Source: Limnobacter alexandrii
GTDB taxonomy: Bacteria; Pseudomonadota; Gammaproteobacteria; Burkholderiales; Burkholderiaceae_B
Direction of reading: 5' to 3'
DNA: 64,000 nt
Assembly: GCF_005871185.1 (NCBI RefSeq)
Contig: NZ_SWKN01000009.1
Coordinates: forward strand, 62,001-126,000
Shown here: in pieces, positions 3,213 to 38,976 of the stretch
How the letters are laid out: each line of letters opens with the position of its first letter
How positions within the stretch are numbered: the stretch's first letter is position 1
The notes under the pieces: generated by a model
Seen by the model: only the letters and a program-made list of their open reading frames with translations
What the model was told of the DNA's origin: nothing
The model's database searches: none
Translations under genes and position numbers: made by a program

Positions 3213-4694
3213 TCAATTCAGCAGGCCAATGTGTTCGCCCACGCGAACAATTTTCATGGTGTTGGTTCCACCCGACTTGCCAATTGGCTCACCAATGGTG
3301 ATCACAATCAAATCACCCAACTCAACCACTTTGGCATCCAGCAAAGCCTGCTCCGATTTCGCCAGCAAAACCTCGCGGTCCTCCGTTTCGTACTGCATCA
3401 TCACAGTGCGCACATCGCGGTACATCGACAGGCGACGACGTGTTTTTTCCTCAGGTGTCAGCGCGAATATTGGCACGCCACTGTTCAAACGCGACATCCA
3501 CAAGGCTGTTGAACCAGACTGGGTCAGCGCAGCAATCGCTTTCACCTCCAGATGGTGCGCAGTGAACAAGGCCGCCATGGCGATCGATTGATCCACGCGC
3601 TTGAACTTGCGATTCAGGAAATCCGCGTCCAGACTGATGGTGGCAGATTTCTCAGCCTCAACGCACACGCGTGCCATGGCCACAATTGTTTCTACCGGAA
3701 ACTTGCCTGCCGCAGTTTCAGCGGACAACATGACAGCATCCGTGCCATCGAGCACGGCATTGGCCACATCAGAAACTTCAGCACGGGTGGGCACTGGGCT
3801 TTCAATCATGCTTTCCATCATCTGGGTAGCAGTAATGGTTAGCTTGTTGGCCTCCCGGGCGGCGCGAATGAGGCGCTTTTGGGCGGCAGGCACTGCCGCA
3901 TCCCCAATTTCAACAGCCAGATCGCCACGGGCCACCATCAGACCGTCGCAAGAACGGATCAGATCATCCAGATTCTCGAGTGCCTCGCAGCGCTCAATTT
4001 TCGCGATCATCATGGCGTGCCCACCAGCCGCACGAGTCAGCTCACGAGCCATGTACATGTCGGCACCACTTTTGGGAAAGCTGACAGCAATGTAGTCCGC
4101 TTCGAAAGCCACAGCGGTGCGAATGTCTTCCATGTCTTTGGAGGTCAGCGCTGGCGCAGACAAGCCACCGCCCAATTTGTTAATGCCCTTGCGGTTTTTA
4201 AGCACACCGCCCACTTCAGTTTCGCAGTGAATTTGGCTGGGGGTTACTTTCTTGACCTTCAACACGATTTTGCCATCGTCTAGCAACAAGGTGTCGCCAG
4301 CTTTTACATCATTGACCAGCTCGGGATAGTCCAAACCAACCCGCTCATCGTCACCCGAATCGCACTTGGCTTCCAGCACAAAGGGCTGACCATTCACGAG
4401 GTTCGTGGAACCGTTGGCAAACACACCAATCCGGATTTTTGGTCCTTGCAAATCAGCCATTACGGCGATGTCACGCTTCAAGCGAGCCGCAATTTCACGC
4501 ACGGTTTTAACCCGGTCAATGTGCTCTTGCGCGGTGCCATGCGAGAAATTGACCCGCACCACATTCATGCCAGCCGCGATCATCCGCTCAAGCACGGCGG
4601 GGTCGGTGGATGCTGGCCCCAAAGTCGCGACGATTTTGGTTTGACGGGGTACGTAGGCGTTGGGCACTGATTTGCTCCCTGAGTTGGCCATCAA
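3213..4694 (-). CDS. pyk: Pyruvate kinase
   Basis: Transfers phosphate from phosphoenolpyruvate to ADP. The 493-residue protein has the N-terminal [13 protein letters not shown] barrel start, the ADLQGPKIR segment, the catalytic-lysine stretch [11 protein letters not shown] (about 229-239), [12 protein letters not shown], and the TQMMESMI motif, followed by the C-terminal allosteric domain. The start codon overlaps the last bases of pgk (ATGA arrangement), showing tight coupling; the second codon is also ATG, so the start is uncertain by one residue. Confidence 0.97.
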
Positions 4695-5872
4695 ACGGCT
4701 CTTTGTTGAAGAATTTCAACAGCCGGCAGCGTTTTGCCTTCCAGAAATTCAAGGAATGCGCCGCCGCCAGTGGAAATATAACTAACCTGCTCGCCAATGT
4801 TGTATTTGGATATGGCGGCCAGGGTGTCACCACCGCCCGCAATCGAGAAGGCCTTGGAATTTGCAATGGCCATGGCCAGGCGCTCGGTGCCTTTGCCAAA
4901 CTGGTCGAATTCGAATACACCCACTGGGCCGTTCCAGACAATGGTGCCGGCTTTGTCCAAAATTGCAGCCAGTTCCTCAGCCGTGTTCGGCCCAATGTCG
5001 AAAATCATGTCATCGGCAGCCACATCGCCCACTTTCTTGGTGGTCGCGTAGGCTGTTGGAGAGAACTCTTTGCCCACCACCACATCGGTAGGAATGGGCA
5101 CAGCAGCACCGCGTGCTTTCATGTTGTCGATGATGGTTTTGGCCTCATTGACCAAATCGTGTTCAGCCAGTGATTTGCCAATTGGCAAGCCCAGGGCTGC
5201 CATGAAGGTGTTGGCAATACCGCCGCCCACGATCAGCTGATCGACTTTGTCGGCCAGGCTGTTCAAGATCGTCAGTTTGGTCGATACCTTTGAACCCGCC
5301 ACAATGGCCACCATGGGGCGCTTGGGGGCAGAAAGCGCTGCACCCAGGGCATCCAGCTCGGCGGCCAGCAAAGGGCCAGCACACGCCACTGGTGCGTATT
5401 GTGCCGCACCGTGAGTGGTGGCTTCGGCCCGGTGGGCAGTGCCAAATGCGTCGTTCACGTAAATGTCGCAAAGTGCAGCAATTTGTTGCGCCAGTTCCGG
5501 CTTGTTCTTCTTCTCGCCTTTGTTAAATCGGCAATTCTCGAGCAGCAACACTTCTCCAGCCTTCACCTCAACGCCATTAACCCAGTCTTTCACCAGGCGA
5601 ACGGGGCGCCCCAACAATTCGCCAAGGCGAACTGCCACAGGAGCCAAGCTCAGCTTTTCATCGTACTCACCTTCGGTGGGACGGCCAAAGTGGCTGGTCA
5701 ACAACAAGGCTGCGTTGTTGTTCAAGCAATATTCAATGCCAGGCAAAGAGGCACGAATGCGGGTGTCTTCCGTGATGTTGCCATTTGCATCCACTGGCAC
5801 GTTAAAATCGACGCGGATCAACACGCGTTTGTTGGATACGTTTTGGTCGGTCAGGCGCAGGAAACGCAACAT
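4691..5872 (-). CDS. pgk: Phosphoglycerate kinase
   Basis: Reversible transfer of phosphate from 1,3-bisphosphoglycerate to ADP. The 393 residues are the normal bacterial length. Visible motifs are RVDFNVPVD near residues 21-29, [12 protein letters not shown] (about 58-69), [13 protein letters not shown] (about 139-151), the [11 protein letters not shown] strand of the hinge, and the C-terminal [18 protein letters not shown] nucleotide site. First gene of the pgk-pyk-fba unit. Its start codon lies directly against the start region of the divergent rhombosortase gene, so their promoters must overlap coding sequence. Confidence 0.97.
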
Positions 5873-6516
5873 TGCTTTTCAACTCTCAAGGAAGGTTATT
5901 GGAAACAATCCGGAATTATAACGCCCCCAGCCCACTTTTCCTCGGGTTCGCCTCCTCCTTTGTCATCGGAATCTTGGCAATGTCAGGGCAAGTTTTTGCA
6001 CCCGACTTTGCTCAGCAAGGGCTTGATTTAATTGACTCATTCTTTATTTATGTTTTGCTGGCACAGTTTACCCACCTGGGCTGGGTTCATCTGGGCTTGA
6101 ACCTCGCTGGGCTGGCGATTGTGACCTGGGGCTTTTCCGGGCAGCGCAGCGCCGCTGAATGGCTGTGGATACAGCTGGTTTCCCTGTTGTGGCTGGCGTG
6201 CTACTTAAGCTGGATTGAACCTGTTCAATGGTATTGCGGGCTGAGCGGTGCCCTGCATTTTCAATTCACCGCCTGCTTGCTGATTGCCCTTTACAGAAGC
6301 CCAAGCAGGCTTGCGCAAAGCTGGCCTTTGTGGGTGCTTGCCGCCGGGCTTGCTGTGAAACTGACACTTGAATGGCATTCGGGCCCCACCACCGATTCAC
6401 TGGTGGGCGGCCCGATTGCATTTGAGGCACACAGGGGGGGCGCTTTGGGTGGTGGTTTACTTGGACTCGCTATGATTGGGTGCTCACTGCGATGGAAGTC
6501 GAACCGTACTTCCTGA
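5872..6516 (+). CDS. rrtA: Rhombosortase (rhomboid-type intramembrane serine protease)
   Basis: Rhombosortases are rhomboid-family membrane proteases that process proteins bearing a C-terminal GlyGly-CTERM tail. This 214-residue, multi-pass protein has the rhomboid helix [15 protein letters not shown] (about 67-81), the active-site serine in CGLSGALH (Ser125) and a histidine in [12 protein letters not shown] (His187), the Ser-His dyad spacing of the family. It converges on, and overlaps by 47 bases, a subtilase that carries such a tail. The start is uncertain: TTG at 5872 is the most upstream choice and would overlap the pgk start codon; another TTG lies at 5899. No ATG occurs before the first membrane segment. 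Confidence 0.82.
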
Positions 6517-8464
6517 ATACCCATATCAAAACAGACATCAAGAACAAACCGGGCAAGGTGGTGGCACCACCGCCACCGCCGCCCCCACCACCTGTGGAAA
6601 CTGACGAACTGGAGCCTGAGCTGTTGTCGGTTGTGGGTGTGGTAGTGCCGCCCGAGCTGGCATTGGCCACCGAGGAAGGCGAACTGCCATCGTCTCCGCT
6701 GGCGACCACACGCAGCGCAGTAAAGCTGCTGTGGGCTTCACCAACCGAGTCAGTCACAGTGAGTTGAAACACCAAATCTGTACTTGAGCCCGGTGCTGGT
6801 AAATCAACGTCAGCGGAGGTTTGGGTTCCGCTCATCAACTGCTCACCTGAAACCTGGGTCCAAGCATAGGAGGCGATGCTGCGCCCTGCGGCCACGCTGC
6901 TTGCAGAACCACGCAGGCGAACCGGATTCAAACCAGTGGCGCTTTCCTGAAACCCACTGGTGCCAAGGCCGTTGGCCGATGCAGACGCATTGGCCACGGG
7001 GCGCGTGCCTTTCACGGCAGACACCGCGGCAAATGCATCTAGCATGCCAGTACCACATACTGCGGTGGTGCAATTGCAACTGCCCGAACCCTGATTGGCC
7101 GTGCAGGTACTGCTTCTGGGACTTAAAAAACTTGAAGTGCTGCTGAGGATTTGGCTGCGCAACTGGGCTGGCGTGAGTGCAGGGTTGATTGCACGCATAA
7201 GCCCCGCGGTTGCCGCCACCAGTGGGGCAGCAAACGAAGTACCGGTTTTGCTGACCAAACTGGCCGAGGACGGTGTGGTTGTGCCCGAGTTACCCAAACC
7301 CACCAGGCCATTGCTGAAACCGCCGGGTGCCATCAGGCTGACTGCGCTGCCAATGGCACTGTAGCTGGCACGGCTACCATCTCGATCCAAGGCACCCACT
7401 GCAAGCACATTGCTGCAGTTCGCAGGGGAATCGACCGAACCGCCGCTGTTGCCCGCGGCAGCCACCACCAGAGTACCTGCTGCATTCACACGGTCTACCA
7501 CTGTTTGCTCAAATGAACTGCAGGTGGTGGGGCTACCCAAACTCAGGTTGATTACATCGGCCGGATTGGGATTGCGTGGAATACCGGGCACGTCAAGGCC
7601 GGCAGACCACAACATGGCGTCCAGCACATCCGACAACAAACCGCCGCATTTGCCAAGCACACGTACGGGCAACACCTTCACATTCCAGTCAGCACCAGCC
7701 ACATCGGAATCGCTGTGGGTATTTGCGGCAATTTGTCCTGCCACGAATGTGCCGTGCCAGCTTGAATTCTTGACACTGCAACCTGAAAACGCAGATGTTT
7801 GCGTGTCTGCGCTGCTAATCCAGTTTCCAGGGTCTGCTGCATTGGCATCGCGGCCGTTGCCATCATTGGCCGTGGGCACATCCGACACGAAGTCATAGCC
7901 GCTGAGGAGGCGACCCATCAAATCCGGGGTTTCGAAAACCACGCCAGTGTCCAGCACAGCCACGATCACGTCGGCACTGCCACGCACCACATCCCAAGCT
8001 TGGTCAAACTTGGCACCTGCGGTATTGAATGTCGAACGCAAGGCCCACTGATTTGAAAAGGTGGGATCATTGGGCGTTGCAAAGGCACGCATGGGGCGGT
8101 CTTCAATAGCGAATTCCACCTCGGGGTCGCTGGCCAAGCGATTCAGCATGGATTGTTGATCACTTGCACGCACACTGCTACCCCAACGCATCACATGAGT
8201 ACCCACCGAACCGGCACGCAACCAGGTCGCATCCACATTGTTTCGGCTCATGACCTCTGCAAGAAACTCGCCTTCTTTTTCGAGGCGGCGAAGAGACGGT
8301 GCACTGCTTAACTCGACCGAGTTTTTCAGTTTGATGATGAACTGGGCGCCGCCGCTTTGCGCGTGGGCAGGCGCGACCAAGAGAATCCAAAGCATGAGCA
8401 AAACGCTGGTGACCAGCACACGCAATGGCGTCACTTTTTGCTTTTTTGGACGAAAGGTCAACAT
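6470..8464 (-). CDS. Secreted S8 subtilisin-like protease with GlyGly-CTERM tail
   Basis: A 664-residue exported serine protease. Residues 1-35 form a signal peptide (basic start, VLLMLWILLV core, cleavage after APAHA). The catalytic triad is Asp172 in VAVLDTGV, His237 in SSWHGTFVAG and Ser410 in KTGTSFAAP, with the oxyanion Asn in AAAGNSGG (about 336-343). Paired cysteines suggest disulfides. A PKD-like beta domain follows (about 500-600), then a Ser/Thr-rich linker, nine glycines (625-633), a hydrophobic helix and Arg-Lys: a GlyGly-CTERM sorting signal. Unusually, ten more residues follow the basic cluster. Family knowledge implies export and release or anchoring with help from the adjacent rhombosortase; the type II secretion system usually involved is not in this window. 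Confidence 0.9.
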   Translation of the reverse strand: MLTFRPKKQKVTPLRVLVTSVLLMLWILLVAPAHAQSGGAQFIIKLKNSVELSSAPSLRRLEKEGEFLAEVMSRNNVDATWLRAGSVGTHVMRWGSSVRASDQQSMLNRLASDPEVEFAIEDRPMRAFATPNDPTFSNQWALRSTFNTAGAKFDQAWDVVRGSADVIVAVLDTGVVFETPDLMGRLLSGYDFVSDVPTANDGNGRDANAADPGNWISSADTQTSAFSGCSVKNSSWHGTFVAGQIAANTHSDSDVAGADWNVKVLPVRVLGKCGGLLSDVLDAMLWSAGLDVPGIPRNPNPADVINLSLGSPTTCSSFEQTVVDRVNAAGTLVVAAAGNSGGSVDSPANCSNVLAVGALDRDGSRASYSAIGSAVSLMAPGGFSNGLVGLGNSGTTTPSSASLVSKTGTSFAAPLVAATAGLMRAINPALTPAQLRSQILSSTSSFLSPRSSTCTANQGSGSCNCTTAVCGTGMLDAFAAVSAVKGTRPVANASASANGLGTSGFQESATGLNPVRLRGSASSVAAGRSIASYAWTQVSGEQLMSGTQTSADVDLPAPGSSTDLVFQLTVTDSVGEAHSSFTALRVVASGDDGSSPSSVANASSGGTTTPTTDNSSGSSSSVSTGGGGGGGGGATTLPGLFLMSVLIWVFRKYGSTSIAVSTQS

Positions 8465-8724
8465 GGCAGTACTCGCTTATCACAATGGGTTTTAGCTTAC
8501 CCAGCGAGGTGCACAATCAATTTGTTGAATAGAAAGCAGAACGGAGTCTACTTCTCAGCTACCTCGCCAAAGCCAGACGAATACCGTTTTAACGGCGCCA
8601 AACAAGGCTTTGTGCATAACCATTAGGGGTAGGGGAGCCCACAAAGGAGGAAGGTTTTTTGAGGAATTGTGGGCACAAAAAAACCGGGCGCAAGGCCCGG
8701 TTTTTCATGAGAACACTTTTGGAA
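8465..8724. other. Intergenic region between gap and the subtilase
   Basis: About 260 bases with no convincing gene. The end nearest gap holds that gene's terminator; the remainder must contain the promoter of the minus-strand subtilase, but I see no strong -35/-10 pair. Confidence 0.5.
8677..8705 (-). terminator. Rho-independent terminator of gap
   Basis: CCGGGC (8684-8689) pairs with GCCCGG (8695-8700) around a 5-base loop, flanked by an A run on one side and T run on the other. On the minus strand this gives a GC stem followed by at least six T, just past the gap stop at 8725. The symmetrical flanks could also let it act on the plus strand. Confidence 0.85.
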
Positions 8725-9756
<1,032 letters not shown>

Positions 9757-9760
9757 TCAA

Positions 9761-11782
9761 TTATTTCTGTACCAAAGCCAATGCGGCTTCGGTGAGTTTT
9801 TCAGTCGTCAGTCCAAAATGCTTGAACAAAGCACCTGCCGGGGCAGATTCACCAAAGGTGCTCATGCCCAACACGGTGCCTTTCACGCCAGCCTGTGCAA
9901 TGTATTTGTACCAGCCATCGGTCATGCCAGCTTCAATCACGGCGATCGGCGCTGTGCCCAGCACTTCTGCTTTGTAAGCTGCACTTTGGCGATCAAACAC
10001 ATTGGTTGAAGGCATGGACACCACACGCGCCGCCACGCCTTTTTCCGCCAAAGCCTTCTGCGTGTTCATCGCAATCTCGATTTCCGAACCTGTGGCGATC
10101 AAGGTGACCTTGGCACCGGCTGCATCAGCCAGCACATAGCCACCTTTGGCGATTGAATTCAATACCGATTCAGAGCGCGCCAGGAATGGCAGGTTTTGGC
10201 GACTGAACAACAAGCTGCTTGGTCCGTCTTTGCGCATCACCGCGCTGTTCCAGGCCGCCATAGATTCCACGGAATCGGCCGGGCGCCACACGTCCATATT
10301 GGGCAGCAAGCGCAGGGTTGCAGCATGCTCTACTGGCTGGTGGGTGGGGCCGTCTTCACCCAAACCGATTGAGTCGTGGGTGAATACAAAAATATTGCGC
10401 TTCTTCATGAGTGCCGCCATGCGCAGGGCATTGCGGCTGTAATCGGAGAAGGTCAAGAAGGTGGCGCCAAATGGAATGTAACCACCGTGCAGCGCCACTC
10501 CGTTGAGTGCGGCGCTCATCCCGAATTCACGCACACCCCAGTTGATGTGGTTACCGGCAGTAAAGCCATCGGCGTTGCGACGAACCGCCACACACTTGGG
10601 CCAATTGGTCAGGTTTGAACCTGTCAGGTCGGCAGAGCCGCCCAGCAGTTCGGGCAATTCGGCAGCCAGCAGCGTAATTGCGTTTTGGCTGGCTTTGCGG
10701 GTGGCGATGGTTTCACCCTTGGCAGCCACTTCAGCCAGCAAACGGGCAGCAGTCTGTTCAAACTGCGCAGGCAAATCACCCGCCATGCGGCGCTTGAATT
10801 CTGAAGCCTTGGCCGGGAATTTCGCGCTGTAAGCGTCGAACAACTTGTCCCAGGCGGATTGGCGTGCAGCACCTTCAACCTGCGCGTCCCAGGCGTTGTA
10901 CACCTCGGCAGGAATTTCGAAGGGAGCATGGTCCCAACCAATTGCAGCGCGGGTAGCGGCAATTTCAGCATCGCCCAGCGGTGCACCGTGTACTTTGTCG
11001 GTACCCGCCAGATTAGGCGAACCCTCGCCGATATTGGTTTTGCAGCAAATCAGGGTTGGGCCTTTGTCCAGCGCAGCGTTTTGCTTGGCCTGAGCAATGG
11101 CGGCATCCACCGCGTCTACATCGTGGCCATTCACGCTTGGAATCACGTTCCAGCCATAAGCCTCAAAGCGCTTTGGCGTGTTGTCGGCAAACCAGTGCTC
11201 AACTTCGCCATCGATGGAAATGCCATTGTCGTCGTACATCACGATCAGCTTGGACAAGCCCAAGGTGCCCGCCAAGGAACAAGCCTCGTGGGAAATGCCT
11301 TCCATCAGGCAACCGTCACCCAAAAACACATAGGTGTTGTGGTCGACGATCGGGAAACCCGCTTCATTGAACTCTGCTGCCAGCAGCTTTTCAGCCAAGG
11401 CCAAACCGACGGCATTGGCAATGCCCTGCCCCAATGGGCCCGTGGTGGTCTCAACTCCGGGGGTGATGTCCACTTCAGGGTGGCCTGGTGTTTTAGAATG
11501 CAACTGGCGGAAATTTTTCAATTCCTCAATCGGCAAATCGTAGCCAGTCAGGTGCAGCAGCGCGTAAATCAACATGGAACCGTGGCCGTTGGACAATACG
11601 AAGCGGTCGCGATCAGCCCACAGGGGGTTTTGCGGATTGTGCTTCAAGTGACGGGCCCACAAGGCCACTGCGATTTCGGCCATGCCCATAGGCATGCCGG
11701 GATGCCCGGATTTGGCGGCTTGAACTGCATCCATGGCGAGCGCGCGAATTGCGTTGGCCATGTTCTTTGACGAAGAGGACAT
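9761..11782 (-). CDS. tkt: Transketolase
   Basis: Thiamine-diphosphate enzyme of the pentose phosphate pathway that moves two-carbon units between sugar phosphates. The 673 residues fit the family. Visible are [14 protein letters not shown] (about 26-39), the TPP motif [13 protein letters not shown] (about 155-167) with the later NN element, the pyrimidine-domain stretch [19 protein letters not shown] (about 470-488), and the C-terminal domain. It precedes gap by 25 bases. The divergent gene rsmE starts 116 bases upstream, so the promoter lies in 11783-11898. Confidence 0.97.
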
Positions 11783-34131: not shown

Positions 34132-34164
34132 CTACAAAAACAGCTTGCTAGGAGGAGATGACAC

Positions 34165-36453
34165 GTGTTCAAGCTGAATAAACTATCTGCAGTAATCGCC
34201 ATTGGATTGGGAACTGCATTACCCGTACAAGCCGGTCTGCTCGACGACCTGATCGGCGCCAAGTTCAACCCAGTTAGCACCAGCAAAGGAGTTGCGCCTG
34301 AAGGCCAGAAAGGCACGTTCAGCCAACCTTTCGCAGAGCCGTTTGTGTATGAACGCTCTGTGGCCGACGACAACAATCCCGACTTGCAAGGAATTCGCAC
34401 CGACAACAAGTGTGAGGGCATTGGCGCGAACGGCAAGCTGCGCTGCAAACCAGCAGCAGGCACAATCTCGATGTTGCCCAATGGAGACTTCCTGTATTTC
34501 AACGCGCTTGAAGGCACGGAAGATTTTGAGTTCAGCATTCTGGTGGATTTTGGTCAAAAAGCCATCAATGACCAGACCCGCGTGATGCAGATCCCCAAAG
34601 ATGCAAACGCAGCAAACCTGTGGACACGTCCAACCGATGTTGATTCTGGCGCCAATCCGGACGGCTATGAGATCACCGAACTGATCCCGGGCTTGACCAA
34701 CAAGGAGACCAACAGCGCCGACGGTGCCCTCTTCTGTGCGGACGTGGCCATGCTGGCCGATGGCCGCATCATGGCGGTGGGCGGAACTGCTTACTACAGC
34801 GAGCCCGGCAGCAACTTGATCGGCTATGGCCTAACCGAACTGGAAGGCCTGAAAAACAGCCGCGCGTACAACGCCAATACCAATACATGGAGCCAGCTGG
34901 CAGACATGAACTTTGGTCGCTGGTACCCAGCGCTGATTACCCTGCCCGACAGCAAGATGTTTGTTGCAAGTGGCGTAACCAAACTGCTTAAGCCTATTTA
35001 TCCACAGGCTCCCGAGCAGAGCGGCCGTAACGTTCCACAAACCGAGACCTATGACCCGGCAACAAACAAGTGGACAGTGAATGCAGAAACAGCACAGCGC
35101 TCTCTGCCGCTTTACCCACGCTTGCATCTGTTGCCCAACGGTCACGTTTACTACAATGCGGGCGGCCAAGCCTTCAACCCGTTTGGTCAGGCTTATGACC
35201 AGCCATTGTGGAATATTGCGGCCACTTACAATCCAGCCAACCAAACCTGGTCTGATCTGGCCTATGCAGGTTTCCCTTTGAAATTCAGCGATGCTGGCCT
35301 TGAGTCCCTGACCCAAATCCTGAATCCGTTGACTGCTCCCAACGCCGCCATGAGCGCACTCACCAAAACCTTGATGAGCGCACCCATGAAGAGCCCACAG
35401 GCCCTTCAAAAACTGCTGAGCACAGTGAGCACAGGCAACCCAGAGCAAATGGTTCAGAAGGTTGTAGGTTCTGGCATGCGCGGATCTACATTTTCAGTCA
35501 TGATGCCTCTGCGCCCCAACGCTCAGGGCCAGTACAAGGAAGCGAGCTTCCTGACAGCTGGTGGTGTTCTGCCACTGGTGGGCTTGACCTCTCCAGGCGG
35601 ATACGTGGCCGTGGCTGCATCACGCATTGACACAGTGAAAACCGAAGGTGACAACATTGTCGATTACCAGAGTGAAGTGACTGGTTCCCTCAATGAAACC
35701 CGTTGGTACGGTTCAGGCGTGTTGATGCCCGATGACTCCGTGATGGTGTTCAGTGGCGGTGACCGCGACGGTGTGGCAGCACCCGGCGTGGAATTCCCTC
35801 GCAAAACAGCAGAGCGTTTTGACCCTGTTACCAAGAAGTGGACTCAAATGGCTGTGGCCAACAACCCCCGTACTTATCACAACACCGCCTTGTTGATGCA
35901 AGACGGTCGCGTGCTGATCGGTGGTCACGCGCCAATTTCCACGCTGTACCTGAAAAACATCAATCTGGCAGCATTCGGTTTTTCACCCAACGACGGTCGT
36001 GACCCATCTTTCGAGATCTACTCACCACCTTACGTGGGTAACCCGAATCGCCCCAACCTGATTGGTTTTGCAGGCGGCAATGCAACTCCCGCGGGCAATG
36101 GCAAAACAATGATGCGCGAATTCCGCAAAGGTCAACAAGTGACTCTGGAAATGGCACCAGGTACAGACATGAGCAAGATTGACTCTATCACCCTGGTACG
36201 CCATACAGTGACAACCCACTTGACCGATGCTGACCAACGCACCGTTGTCATTCCCAAAAATCAACTAACCATGACAGGTCAAAGCATTCGTTTTAATATT
36301 CCGGACCAAGCCGCTGTGGTTCCACAGGGTGCCTACATGACCTTCGTACGCGCCAAGCAAGCGGATGGTTCACTGTTGCCATCCAAAGCTGTCAGCTTCA
36401 TGTTGAAGCATGGCAATGGACAAGGAGTGATGACTGCCAATGCCCGTCGTTAA
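34165..36453 (+). CDS. Secreted AA5-family copper-radical oxidase (glyoxal/galactose oxidase type)
   Basis: 762 residues with a signal peptide cleaved after PVQA (about 23). Kelch-like propeller repeats (ETYDPATNKWT, RFDPVTKKWTQ) are followed by the DUF1929 C-terminal beta domain. All metal-site residues of the family can be aligned by motif: Cys191 (LFCADVAML) and Tyr254 (FGRWYPALI) for the Cys-Tyr radical cofactor, Tyr571-His572 (NPRTYHNTALL) and His685 (RHTVTTHLTDADQR) as copper ligands. The enzyme would oxidise an aldehyde or primary alcohol and release hydrogen peroxide outside the cytoplasm; the substrate is unknown. An insert at about 370-450, rich in Ala/Leu/Met, is not part of the minimal fold. 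Start is GTG with a strong GGAGGAG. The 3' end overlaps the next gene by 14 bases. Confidence 0.88.
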   Translation: MFKLNKLSAVIAIGLGTALPVQAGLLDDLIGAKFNPVSTSKGVAPEGQKGTFSQPFAEPFVYERSVADDNNPDLQGIRTDNKCEGIGANGKLRCKPAAGTISMLPNGDFLYFNALEGTEDFEFSILVDFGQKAINDQTRVMQIPKDANAANLWTRPTDVDSGANPDGYEITELIPGLTNKETNSADGALFCADVAMLADGRIMAVGGTAYYSEPGSNLIGYGLTELEGLKNSRAYNANTNTWSQLADMNFGRWYPALITLPDSKMFVASGVTKLLKPIYPQAPEQSGRNVPQTETYDPATNKWTVNAETAQRSLPLYPRLHLLPNGHVYYNAGGQAFNPFGQAYDQPLWNIAATYNPANQTWSDLAYAGFPLKFSDAGLESLTQILNPLTAPNAAMSALTKTLMSAPMKSPQALQKLLSTVSTGNPEQMVQKVVGSGMRGSTFSVMMPLRPNAQGQYKEASFLTAGGVLPLVGLTSPGGYVAVAASRIDTVKTEGDNIVDYQSEVTGSLNETRWYGSGVLMPDDSVMVFSGGDRDGVAAPGVEFPRKTAERFDPVTKKWTQMAVANNPRTYHNTALLMQDGRVLIGGHAPISTLYLKNINLAAFGFSPNDGRDPSFEIYSPPYVGNPNRPNLIGFAGGNATPAGNGKTMMREFRKGQQVTLEMAPGTDMSKIDSITLVRHTVTTHLTDADQRTVVIPKNQLTMTGQSIRFNIPDQAAVVPQGAYMTFVRAKQADGSLLPSKAVSFMLKHGNGQGVMTANARR

Positions 36454-37411
36454 ATCGAACTGGGTGAAGAAAACGCTGGGCGCCTGCCTGGCGTTTTCTT
36501 TTTCTACCCTCATAATTTCAAGCCCCTTTGTTGGCAACACAGCTTTCGCACATGCTGAACACGGCTCGGAAGGTGGCGTACCCACCGTAAGCCCGAAAGC
36601 CAAGTTGCCCAAAGGAATTTCATTGCAAGTGGTTAAAACCAATGCCTATCAATTTGCGCTGGCCACGGACGGACAACAGCGAATTGAAATACTGGGCGAA
36701 GACAAACGGGCGTTTTTGCGTTTCGACCAAGACAAACTGTATGCTGACCTGAACGCAAGCGGCTGGCACCGTTCCAGACAACCCGGCGGCGGCCCGATAC
36801 CCGACCGAATCAAAGACAACCCGAAGTTGGAACCCAATTGGGTACTCTTGGACAAACAGCCGGGTTATGGCTGGTACGACCCCCGTTTGATCAAAGAAGA
36901 TCTCGCGCATTTCAATCTGGGCATGGTGCGCAATGGCAAACCACTCAACGTCAGAATTGAACGTATCGAGCCCGAACCCATGACCGGCTACTGGCGACCT
37001 CTTCTGGTAAATGAGCCTGAATTTGCAGGATTGAACGCCATGGTGCCAGGCCTGAGCGGCAATGCTTTCATGCTCAGCCGCATGGGTACTGCACAAGGTG
37101 AGTTTCAGGTGCTGGATGACCAGGGTTTACCGTTCATCGAACTTCGCAAAGACGGAGTTTGGCTGAACAGCCAGCACGCCTGGGCAAACTCGGTGGAGTT
37201 GTTTCACAACCCCGGCACCGAACAGGCGCCATGGGTGAAGGTGTCAGAAACCGGAACGGTGACCTACGCTGACCCAAGACTGGATCAAAAACCGGCAAAG
37301 ACATCGGAAACTGGCAATTGGCAGATACCGGTCAAATTGAAAGAAAGTGAGCAACAAAACCTGCTGAAAGGCGAGCTCAAATGGCAAACCATTGTTGAGA
37401 ACACCAATTAA
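36440..37411 (+). CDS. Unrecognised secreted protein coupled to the AA5 oxidase
   Basis: 323 residues that I cannot place in a family. The N-terminus is a signal peptide (basic KSNWVKK, hydrophobic core, AFA cleavage at 35-37), so the mature protein would begin HAEHGSEGG with histidine at position 1. The rest is beta-rich with repeated short aromatic/Gly-Pro stretches (QPGYGWYDPRL, MTGYWRPLL, FVE-free) and contains no cysteine after the signal peptide and no membrane segment. The ATG lies 14 bases inside the oxidase gene, with AAGGAG 12 bases upstream, so the two are translationally coupled. A role as periplasmic partner, copper donor or product-handling protein for the oxidase is inference from this coupling. 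Confidence 0.75.
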   Translation: MPVVKSNWVKKTLGACLAFSFSTLIISSPFVGNTAFAHAEHGSEGGVPTVSPKAKLPKGISLQVVKTNAYQFALATDGQQRIEILGEDKRAFLRFDQDKLYADLNASGWHRSRQPGGGPIPDRIKDNPKLEPNWVLLDKQPGYGWYDPRLIKEDLAHFNLGMVRNGKPLNVRIERIEPEPMTGYWRPLLVNEPEFAGLNAMVPGLSGNAFMLSRMGTAQGEFQVLDDQGLPFIELRKDGVWLNSQHAWANSVELFHNPGTEQAPWVKVSETGTVTYADPRLDQKPAKTSETGNWQIPVKLKESEQQNLLKGELKWQTIVENTN

Positions 37412-38976
37412 TTGTTAACCGCCTGGGGCACCAGGCGGCATTCTTCCTCAAATCCGTATTTGCGCGCAAACGGACAATCCAGAACTGGCAAAGCACGTGG
37501 AATTTGATAGTACTTTTCCACAGCCTCACGCAGCACCACATCCCTGAATCGTTGGTAATTGAAATTGCTGCCATCCACAATCGTGAAGGGCACACCCCCA
37601 ATAGTTTGGGTTGTCACTGAAACATCACTGAGATAATCCGTGTAAAGCGCCGGGTCAATCGGCTTGGCTTTGGCGACGATGCGAATGGGTTTACCCTCCA
37701 TTTCACGCCAATCCACAAATGTATCGTCGTTGCGTGCATGGTATTTTCCTGGGCCAAACACGGGAACCACCTTGCCATAATGGTAGGTCATCAAAGCGGC
37801 GGGCGAGTAGGCGATGGTAGTGAGCACCCCATCAGCGGGCATGTCGCGGCGAAGCTCGGCAAGAATTTCAGGCATATGCCGGTGAAAAAGCACATCCTCC
37901 TGGAAATCCTTTTTGGGCCAAACCGACACATCGGCGTGCATCAACAGGCCAAACAACACCAGGTGTGGAATCGACAACACGGCGTTAAAACCGACGTAAC
38001 GCTTCATCCAGACGCCTTGAGTGCACAGCGCCAAAAGTACAAATGCAATGGGCAAAAAACCCAGCACCCAGTGCAGACCCACTGTTTTCTCAAGGGAAAT
38101 TAGCAGAAACAAACCCAGCGGAACCAACAAAGCAAACGCCAGCGCACCATGGCGCAACCACACCCGGCTGCCCTTGAGCAAACTCCACAAAGCCCATGGC
38201 GTAATCAGGTAAAGCATCATACCCAGGTAGGTGAGCACAGTGCCCCAACCCAGCTGGGCGTCGTCGTGCCGGTTCACCAGATTGAACATGATGTTGTTCC
38301 AGCAGTTGTGCAGGTTGTAAGCAATGTTCACGCTGGCAAATGGCAGGACACCAGCAAGCAATAGAAAAAGGTACTTGAAACGCTGTCGCTGAAACAGCAA
38401 ATGAAATCCAAATGCAAAGCCCAACAACACCGCAAAGTATTTCGACAAAAAAGCCAGACCCAAAAAGCAACCAGCGAGAAACATGCCTGCACCAGACTCG
38501 GCACGAATCGCTTTCACATAGGTATAAATGGCAAGCCCCATGAAAAATATCAAGGGCGTATCAGTTGTTACGAACACCGCAAACCAGGACACTGGCATGG
38601 ACAAATAAACCGCACCGGCCAACCAGGCTCTGGATTCCTGATCGCGTGGCAATAATTCGCGCGCAAGAAGCACCACACCGAAAGCAACAACCGTAGTCAA
38701 CAGCATCGTCAAGCTGCGAATAACGATGGGCTCGTTGCCCACATGGCTCAGCGCCCACAGCCACCAACCCACCATGGGCGGATGGTCGTAGTAGCCCCAA
38801 TTCAGGTCGGTCGACCACAAGTGGAAAAAAGCCTCATCACCGGTCATTGGAAAAAACCAGGCCAGCCAAATCTTGATAAAAGCCGTGATCACTACAACCC
38901 AGATAAAAAGGCTTTTTGCAGACTTGAGTGTCAGTTCAGGTGCTCGCTGATTCGACAATGAAAAATGACTAGACAT
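37408..38976 (-). CDS. GT39/ArnT-like membrane glycosyltransferase
   Basis: 522-residue integral membrane protein of the family that uses polyprenyl-phosphate sugars as donors on the periplasmic side (ArnT, protein O-mannosyltransferases). The first periplasmic loop has TGDEAFF (Asp47-Glu48, the catalytic acidic pair of the family) and WGYYDHPPMVGWW (about 60-72). About ten to twelve membrane helices follow and then a soluble C-terminal domain. Acceptor and sugar are unknown. It is last in a unit with the HAD-UbiA gene 14 bases upstream. Its stop overlaps the end of the plus-strand neighbour by four bases. Confidence 0.87.
   Translation of the reverse strand: MSSHFSLSNQRAPELTLKSAKSLFIWVVVITAFIKIWLAWFFPMTGDEAFFHLWSTDLNWGYYDHPPMVGWWLWALSHVGNEPIVIRSLTMLLTTVVAFGVVLLARELLPRDQESRAWLAGAVYLSMPVSWFAVFVTTDTPLIFFMGLAIYTYVKAIRAESGAGMFLAGCFLGLAFLSKYFAVLLGFAFGFHLLFQRQRFKYLFLLLAGVLPFASVNIAYNLHNCWNNIMFNLVNRHDDAQLGWGTVLTYLGMMLYLITPWALWSLLKGSRVWLRHGALAFALLVPLGLFLLISLEKTVGLHWVLGFLPIAFVLLALCTQGVWMKRYVGFNAVLSIPHLVLFGLLMHADVSVWPKKDFQEDVLFHRHMPEILAELRRDMPADGVLTTIAYSPAALMTYHYGKVVPVFGPGKYHARNDDTFVDWREMEGKPIRIVAKAKPIDPALYTDYLSDVSVTTQTIGGVPFTIVDGSNFNYQRFRDVVLREAVEKYYQIPRALPVLDCPFARKYGFEEECRLVPQAVNN
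37419..37438. terminator. Perfect 8-bp stem at a convergent gene end
   Basis: CCGCCTGG (37419-37426), GGCA loop, CCAGGCGG (37431-37438). It lies inside the last codons of the glycosyltransferase gene, just after the stop of the plus-strand gene. Neither side has a proper T run, so it may only slow or partly terminate transcription from either direction. Confidence 0.35.

Follow-up and report, generated by a model that had tools for sequence, protein, structure and literature searches.

An exported AA5 copper-radical oxidase of Limnobacter alexandrii and a co-encoded secreted partner with a predicted N-terminal histidine as a candidate copper helper

Copper assists AA5 enzymes in forming their radical cofactor. 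In Streptomyces, the two-gene operon melC1-melC2 encodes tyrosinase, a secreted copper enzyme, along with its caddie protein, a small partner devoted to copper delivery, and lytic polysaccharide monooxygenases (LPMOs) are copper proteins that begin with His. For an AA5 enzyme, the sole copper-delivery route that we met in the open-access literature is that of Sco, ECuC and DtpA for Streptomyces GlxA, in which formation of the AA5-type Tyr-Cys cofactor needs these copper-handling proteins when copper is scarce (PMC4736821). The present work concerns a pair of genes in a window of 64,000 nucleotides from Limnobacter alexandrii (contig NZ_SWKN01000009.1, positions 62,001 to 126,000 of the forward strand), in which an AA5 copper-radical oxidase gene (ORF1) is directly followed by the gene of a second exported protein (ORF2, hereafter the partner; Table 1). 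An earlier note on this DNA had suggested an enzyme with a dedicated copper-loading or partner protein, an interpretation that is partly supported, since a copper-loading role fits what can be read from the sequences. The partner is probably a dedicated copper helper, because it is found together with one AA5 group and has a predicted N-terminal His. That the pair consists of an exported AA5 oxidase and a dedicated exported copper-binding helper for its maturation or loading is, in our judgement, an evenly balanced call.

An enzyme with its own copper helper is an already known kind of system, and the partner family is one that has no model in Pfam or NCBIfam. In general layout, melC1-melC2 resembles the pair in comprising two genes and differs from it in enzyme class and in its reversed gene order. 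The GlxA helpers of S. lividans are encoded away from glxA (PMC4736821), whereas here the partner gene overlaps the enzyme gene. A further likeness is seen in DUF4198, DUF6702, Ang-1 and Ang-2, N-terminal-His metalloproteins identified by signal strapping (PMC12537917), whose signal peptide is likewise followed at once by a conserved His, there a metal ligand. Unlike these, the partner is linked to AA5 and has the His in 43/43 relatives as opposed to the 79% or 65% of those proteins (PMC12537917), and it gives no match to the HupE/UreJ membrane domain of Ang-1 and Ang-2. With LpmP, a copper-dependent LPMO encoded near an AA5 enzyme, the partner shares its genomic setting, yet LpmP is of another family and is not directly coupled to glxA (PMC9040799). 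Searches of the open-access literature showed no description of an AA5 enzyme paired with such a partner. In a paper that often names Limnobacter, a 'Galactose oxidase (NOG69967)' is tabled among genes recruiting transcript reads (PMC4557100).

ORF1 is a member of the known AA5 family. The Cys, the two Tyr and the two His residues that the earlier note had assigned to the cofactor and the copper site all stand at the claimed positions and are invariant in 10/10 aligned sequences (ORF1 of the window included). Against the solved structure 4UNM, they fall on its motifs LFC, RWY, YH and TH.TD. This entry, the best match of ORF1 among PDB sequences (E 2.2e-25), is labelled only as a secreted protein, which we take to be Streptomyces GlxA. 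The Pfam models GO-like_E_set, Glyoxal_oxid_N and Kelch (Kelch_6) score above their cut-offs, giving the AA5 architecture of a kelch propeller with a C-terminal early-set domain, and the start of ORF1 reads as a signal peptide, in agreement with the proposed export; in some lineages, the AA5 protein reads as a lipoprotein. An orthologue of GlxA in the strict sense is ruled out, as ORF1 reaches 149.9 bits against the GlxA equivalog model NCBIfam NF052501, the curated cut-off of which is 800; this, together with a partner outside any Pfam family, sets the locus further apart from the GlxA system. Among the compared sequences, ORF1 belongs to a separate clade. A quick maximum-likelihood tree was built from 63 AA5 rows; the 38 that are paired with a partner form one group (SH-aLRT 99), and the order among the 25 unpaired rows is unsure, because many of them are long branches.

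The partner was described in the earlier note as an exported protein that starts inside the oxidase gene and fits no recognisable family, and each of these points is borne out. The two frames overlap by 14 nt, the start of ORF2 reads as a signal peptide, and the protein has no Pfam match at E<=0.1, no NCBIfam match and no meaningful match among PDB sequences. With 14 members (window and 13 relatives) and a relaxed Pfam threshold of E<=1, only LEA_3a (2) and RRM (1) were hit, with a best E of 0.033. No chaperone profile of the Sco, PCuAC or ECuC type was matched by the window partner (Pfam and NCBIfam) or by the 14 members (Pfam). Among the same 14 members, Pfam gave no match to the HupE/UreJ membrane domain and none to DUF4198 or DUF6702 (E<=1; presence of the latter two models in the library unchecked). 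The partner consists of two tandem domains of alike pattern, and a sub-lineage that includes a Marinobacter plasmid has a single domain with a mature length of 141 to 194 residues. Identity falls to 18% among two-domain and 26% among single-domain partners. Across the enzyme-partner pairs, the partner evolves much faster than the enzyme, with mean identities of 33% vs 56% (two-domain) and 39% vs 74% (single-domain).

The evidence that carries the proposed pairing is genomic. In every sampled genome with this AA5 clade, the partner lies next to the AA5 gene, which confirms a linkage beyond chance: the partner is directly downstream in 45/45 such genomes (14 of the genus, G213, G290, G432, G702, G798 and 26 of the G757 family) and occurs in 0 of the 22 distinct genomes that have only other AA5-like genes, although weak copies can be missed because the searches score only few candidates per genome. 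Within the family of Limnobacter, the partner is present in 15 of 268 genomes, namely 14 of the 16 of the genus and G213, and has AA5 directly upstream in all 15. The two genes are inherited together, as the same 14 of the 16 genus genomes (the window's included; the AA5 search covered these 16 of the 268) harbor an AA5 of this clade, and the two genomes that lack both genes are 85% and 65% complete. In a sample of 369 genomes of the class, a partner profile built from Limnobacter-type sequences matched 4 genomes and the AA5 profile 13, of which three exceed 1100 bits and have an adjacent partner, one is a remnant (G598) and nine score <=144 bits and lack the partner. A broader partner profile found the partner in 5 and AA5 in 11 of 329 genomes of the phylum, the latter comprising four above 900 bits with an adjacent partner, G598 again, and six at <=105 bits without one. 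The window's genome and G598 belong to both samples, and in neither did a partner turn up without this AA5 clade or its remnant. A second family, that of G757, has the partner in 26 of 101 genomes and a strong AA5 in the same 26. The AA5 loci of these genomes number 29, one being split, and are matched by 29 partners alongside them, a tandem duplication of the whole pair included; eight other genomes of this family have weak AA5-like genes (<=124 bits) and no partner. G290 belongs to a small family, in which the partner is encoded by one genome of four, the one covered by the AA5 search. Overall, the co-occurrence search proposed in the earlier note finds partners adjoining AA5 nearly throughout, i.e. 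all partners of the own family (15), of the second family (29), of four further genera and of three plasmids. Two cases deviate, namely a degenerate remnant of an AA5-partner pair and a distant paralogue. The pair thereby spans Pseudomonadota and Actinomycetota, the latter represented only by two near-identical Pseudonocardia plasmids.

A second line of evidence is the residue at which the mature partner would begin. Ala-His stands at this site in 15/15 partners of the own family (window included), within AHAEH in 14, and His follows A, G or S where the hydrophobic segment ends in 43/43 non-identical AA5-linked relatives, a set that excludes the window partner. The latter count stems from a pattern seeking His and leaves over none except a paralogue dropped on purpose; an earlier His-seeking pattern (40/40) had overlooked three Limnobacter sequences, and for three more it had put the site in the wrong place. 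The His on which the earlier note had built its proposal is hence conserved, and the residues around it vary (AFA↓HAEH in the window, elsewhere SGA↓HESS, LMA↓HGAG, VLA↓HEPP, AWS↓HGAH, AHS↓HGSD, AYG↓HGES, AIG↓HGAP and SASA↓HGAA). Judged from the window partner by itself, a cut at AHA↓EHGS would also be possible; AFA↓HAEH is favoured because outside Limnobacter the His follows A, G or S and the later residues vary. Signal peptidase is not known to need a His at +1, and a His within a discarded peptide would hardly be kept, so that mature partners that begin with His are the simplest reading of the alignments.

Apart from this His, the Asp of a GW[YFVL]DxRL motif is the only invariant potential ligand (23/23 single-domain and 20/20 double-domain partners), and conservation elsewhere falls chiefly on W, G, R and P. 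A canonical histidine brace (as defined in PMC10952591) is ruled out in the partner, because such a site needs a second His and none is conserved. Thus, the analogy to CopC and LPMOs drawn in the earlier note holds with respect to the predicted N-terminal His on a beta-rich protein, but not with respect to the second His, in place of which the partner offers one invariant Asp only. The beta-rich fold is taken from structure models of the full partner (pLDDT 82) and of mature domain 1 (pLDDT 90). Neither gave a useful Foldseek match, and the best VIA Z scores of 4.6 and 4.5, for the full model and mature domain 1, are both to unrelated proteins; absence of the histidine-brace fold from the VIA list excludes nothing, and the fold of the partner is not claimed as new.

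The arrangement of the two genes provides a third aspect. Judged from possible partner starts, the overlap with the AA5 stop amounts to 14 or 11 nt at most Limnobacter loci; it is 4 or 1 nt in Pseudonocardia (where the annotated start is further in) as well as in G290, G432, G702 and G757-type loci, and a gap takes the place of the overlap in L022, L023, L024, L087 and most single-domain loci. Within the first codons of the Limnobacter partner lies a terminator-like hairpin with a folded energy of -29.3 as compared to -13.4 for shuffles (z -6.5), which is kept across nine aligned Limnobacter-type sequences, the window included, five of which were folded (z -4.7 to -6.5). Hairpins of different sequence occur at nearly the same place in L018, in L085 and in the L095-L097 group and, in L022, in the intergenic gap. 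At 32 of 43 junctions there is no such hairpin, including the whole single-domain lineage and the two-domain G757-type loci L086, L093 and L094. A hairpin score of >=9 was reached by 14 of 60 junction windows, which include repeats of the same loci and are not all independent, vs 29 of 3321 random windows and 1 of 1605 inside the two genes. Where present, the hairpin would limit read-through into the partner gene or make it depend on ribosomes translating the oxidase gene. Limited read-through would fit a helper needed in smaller amounts, and the Limnobacter hairpin may keep the partner scarcer than the enzyme.

Taken together, a maturation route can be proposed. Removal of the signal peptide would leave a helper starting with His, whose amino group and imidazole could hold one copper ion, perhaps joined by the invariant Asp147. 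The helper would take up copper outside the cytoplasm and deliver it to the apo-oxidase, where the transfer would let the Tyr254-Cys191 crosslink form; alternatively, it may keep the enzyme loaded. The exact cleavage site, copper as the metal, a physical interaction of the two proteins, their activity and the direction of transfer are what we infer here. More tentatively, and at a probability that we place short of even, the whole AA5 clade would depend on this undescribed co-encoded family, with one copper on the N-terminal His (plus Asp, no brace), a direct transfer that builds the Tyr-Cys cofactor, and an amount of helper, relative to the enzyme, that a terminator within the partner's own signal-peptide codons would govern in some lineages. 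A dedicated copper helper is favoured by the one-to-one linkage, by the single AA5 clade that the paired enzymes form, by the persistence of the pair in differing neighbourhoods, by the correlated distances of enzyme and partner, by the invariant His at +1 with A, G or S at -1, by an AA5-unlinked paralogue without the His, and by the copper-related features seen in G432 and G290. In addition, lack of Sco or DtpA disturbs GlxA maturation under copper limitation and added copper rescues it, Gox-type genes co-occur with sco in some Burkholderia (both PMC4736821), and metal chelation by an N-terminal His of secreted proteins is established (PMC12537917).

Several observations weigh against a copper helper. 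For only 25 of 42 AA5-linked partners did the top site of a crude, home-made cleavage rule, blind to the His, have H at +1; one of its top three sites did in 33 of 42 (a further partner, L104, got no call). The corresponding figures are 15 and 18 of 151 controls, and among those 18 the control set is contaminated, by two partners and by a single membrane protein present in seven copies. This rule is too crude to decide the cut, so that the claimed maturation to His-Ala-Glu-His is favoured by the comparison of relatives and left undecided by the blind prediction. The N-terminus is unplaced in the structure models (pLDDT <50 for residues 1-42 of the full protein and 1-6 of the mature domain), which therefore offer no site geometry favouring copper. 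No second His, no Met and no Cys is conserved across the 23 single-domain and 20 double-domain partners, and the 21 neighbourhoods show no other copper gene that accompanies the pair from one lineage to another. GlxA can mature on added copper without Sco (PMC4736821), so that an AA5 enzyme need not have a loader. Finally, part of the correlation between enzyme and partner distances is due to shared ancestry.

The strongest competing explanation, which we nonetheless regard as rather unlikely, is that the partner is a stoichiometric subunit that anchors or stabilises the enzyme or presents its substrate (e. g. a glycan), with a His that is structural or inserted into the active-site region of the oxidase. 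Pairwise distances of enzyme and partner are correlated (r 0.90 for 20 two-domain pairs and r 0.88 for 21 single-domain pairs), and this correlated divergence, which is partly due to shared ancestry alone, fits a subunit as well as a loader, as does the one-to-one linkage. Likewise in line with a subunit are the beta-rich fold that many binding modules have, the existence of one-domain and two-domain forms, the lipoprotein-like AA5 of some lineages and an apparent C-terminal membrane segment read in the Pseudonocardia partner. Against it, the terminator-like hairpin between enzyme and partner would in some lineages lower the partner below the enzyme, and scaffolding alone hardly accounts for so strict a His at +1.

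It is improbable in our view that the partner acts in a cascade with the oxidase, either as a metalloenzyme of its own with an N-terminal His or as a quencher of peroxide or copper, using or removing H2O2 and not maturing the enzyme. N-terminal-His copper sites do perform oxygenase or peroxygenase chemistry (PMC10952591), the Streptomyces LPMO gene lpmP lies close to cslA-glxA-cslZ (PMC9040799), and in G432 a Cu/Zn superoxide dismutase gene follows the pair; however, the partner has no second conserved His for a brace and no match to a Pfam enzyme family. That the His binds another metal or is kept for export or folding, with a real AA5 linkage and a function other than metal handling, is very improbable: the tested N-terminal-His proteins DUF4198 and DUF6702 were most stabilised by nickel in thermal-shift assays (PMC12537917) and the further conserved partner residues are chiefly W, G, R and P, but the partner is tied to the gene for a copper enzyme and the point made above about signal peptidase applies here as well.

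One-to-one pairing of a partner with a single AA5 clade would open AA5 maturation to testing in ordinary laboratory bacteria. It would also name a new protein family and provide a marker for telling this AA5 clade from the remaining galactose-oxidase-like genes, and it could aid the recombinant production of fully active oxidases.

Table 1. Features of the AA5-partner locus (positions within the window).
Feature	Position	Strand	Details
Shine-Dalgarno-like aggaggag ahead of the oxidase GTG start	34150..34157	+	read in the sequence
AA5 copper-radical oxidase (ORF1)	34165..36453	+	762 aa, GTG start, predicted to be exported; C191, Y254, Y571, H572, H685
Shine-Dalgarno-like AAGGAG for the partner, within the oxidase gene	36422..36427	+	read in the sequence
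Partner protein (ORF2)	36440..37411	+	323 aa, ATG start; tandem pair of beta-rich domains (residues 57-177 and 191-318, approximately)
Partner signal peptide, residues 1-37	36440..36550	+	predicted cut AFA↓HAEH, from comparison of relatives
Terminator-like hairpin in the first (signal-peptide) codons of the partner	36466..36504	+	16-bp core and T-tract
His38 codon, predicted mature residue 1	36551..36553	+	15/15 own family, 43/43 AA5-linked relatives
Asp147 codon, GW[YFVL]DxRL motif	36878..36880	+	sole further invariant candidate ligand
Terminator-like hairpin following the pair	37419..37438	+	

The surroundings of the pair vary. In G154 and G213, its neighbourhood is unlike that of the window, and the pair thus stays together as its place changes; no third gene recurs across lineages in the 21 neighbourhoods. 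In the single-domain family, a UvrD/Rep helicase-like gene (c2) was seen in 10 of 16 neighbourhoods and a small gene (c7) in 6 of 16; in G702, both lie side by side about 3 kb from the pair (loci L144, L147-L151, L153, L154, L156, L157 and L085). These flanks are taken as shared chromosomal context. Copper-related features accompany the partner in two lineages. In G432, the Cu/Zn superoxide dismutase gene stands directly after the partner gene, which its longest frame overlaps (L049 7976-8548 and 8512-9531), an arrangement seen in this genome only, and in G290 the partner (L041 985-2481) has an extra C-terminal Met/His-rich region without a Pfam match.

The two exceptions to AA5 adjacency are of different kinds. 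In G598 (L042 / L050 9489-10586), an in-frame remnant fuses the N-terminal part of AA5 with the larger part of the partner, which looks like the loss of the stretch in between, and has no evident signal peptide. The Pseudonocardia plasmid pBCI1-2 (L045 4868-8698) encodes a second member of the partner family (E 6.4e-9 with the partner profile) that lacks the N-terminal His and is the sole AA5-unlinked member found; it lies among genes of unknown function, beside a weakly cupredoxin-like gene and near the AA5-partner pair of this plasmid. The plasmids with an AA5 gene and an adjacent partner are Marinobacter adhaerens pHP-187 and the two of Pseudonocardia, for the second of which adjacency was judged by coordinates only.

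Database scans added few lineages. Two strict peptide patterns, which would miss distant relatives, yielded 14 partner loci in genome contigs, eight of them titled Limnobacter, five in metagenome-assembled genomes whose titles say only Burkholderiales or Gammaproteobacteria bacterium, and one titled Nostoc; with one pattern, no relative was confirmed among 11 viral stretches. The Nostoc-titled contig (L032, filed under Nostoc sp. CHAB 5844) has a partner gene 84% identical to that of the window and is probably Limnobacter contamination, because the contig is Limnobacter-like; among 79 genomes from the phylum of G945, the only match was G945 itself, by this contig. Streptomyces and Gloeothece records with partial AA5 matches showed no partner in their annotated neighbourhoods. 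In Gloeothece verrucosa (L052), a different AA5-like gene (4602-6560) is followed by two other genes and then by a DyP-type peroxidase gene (8398-9813), an arrangement that recalls the GlxA-DtpA link of Streptomyces.

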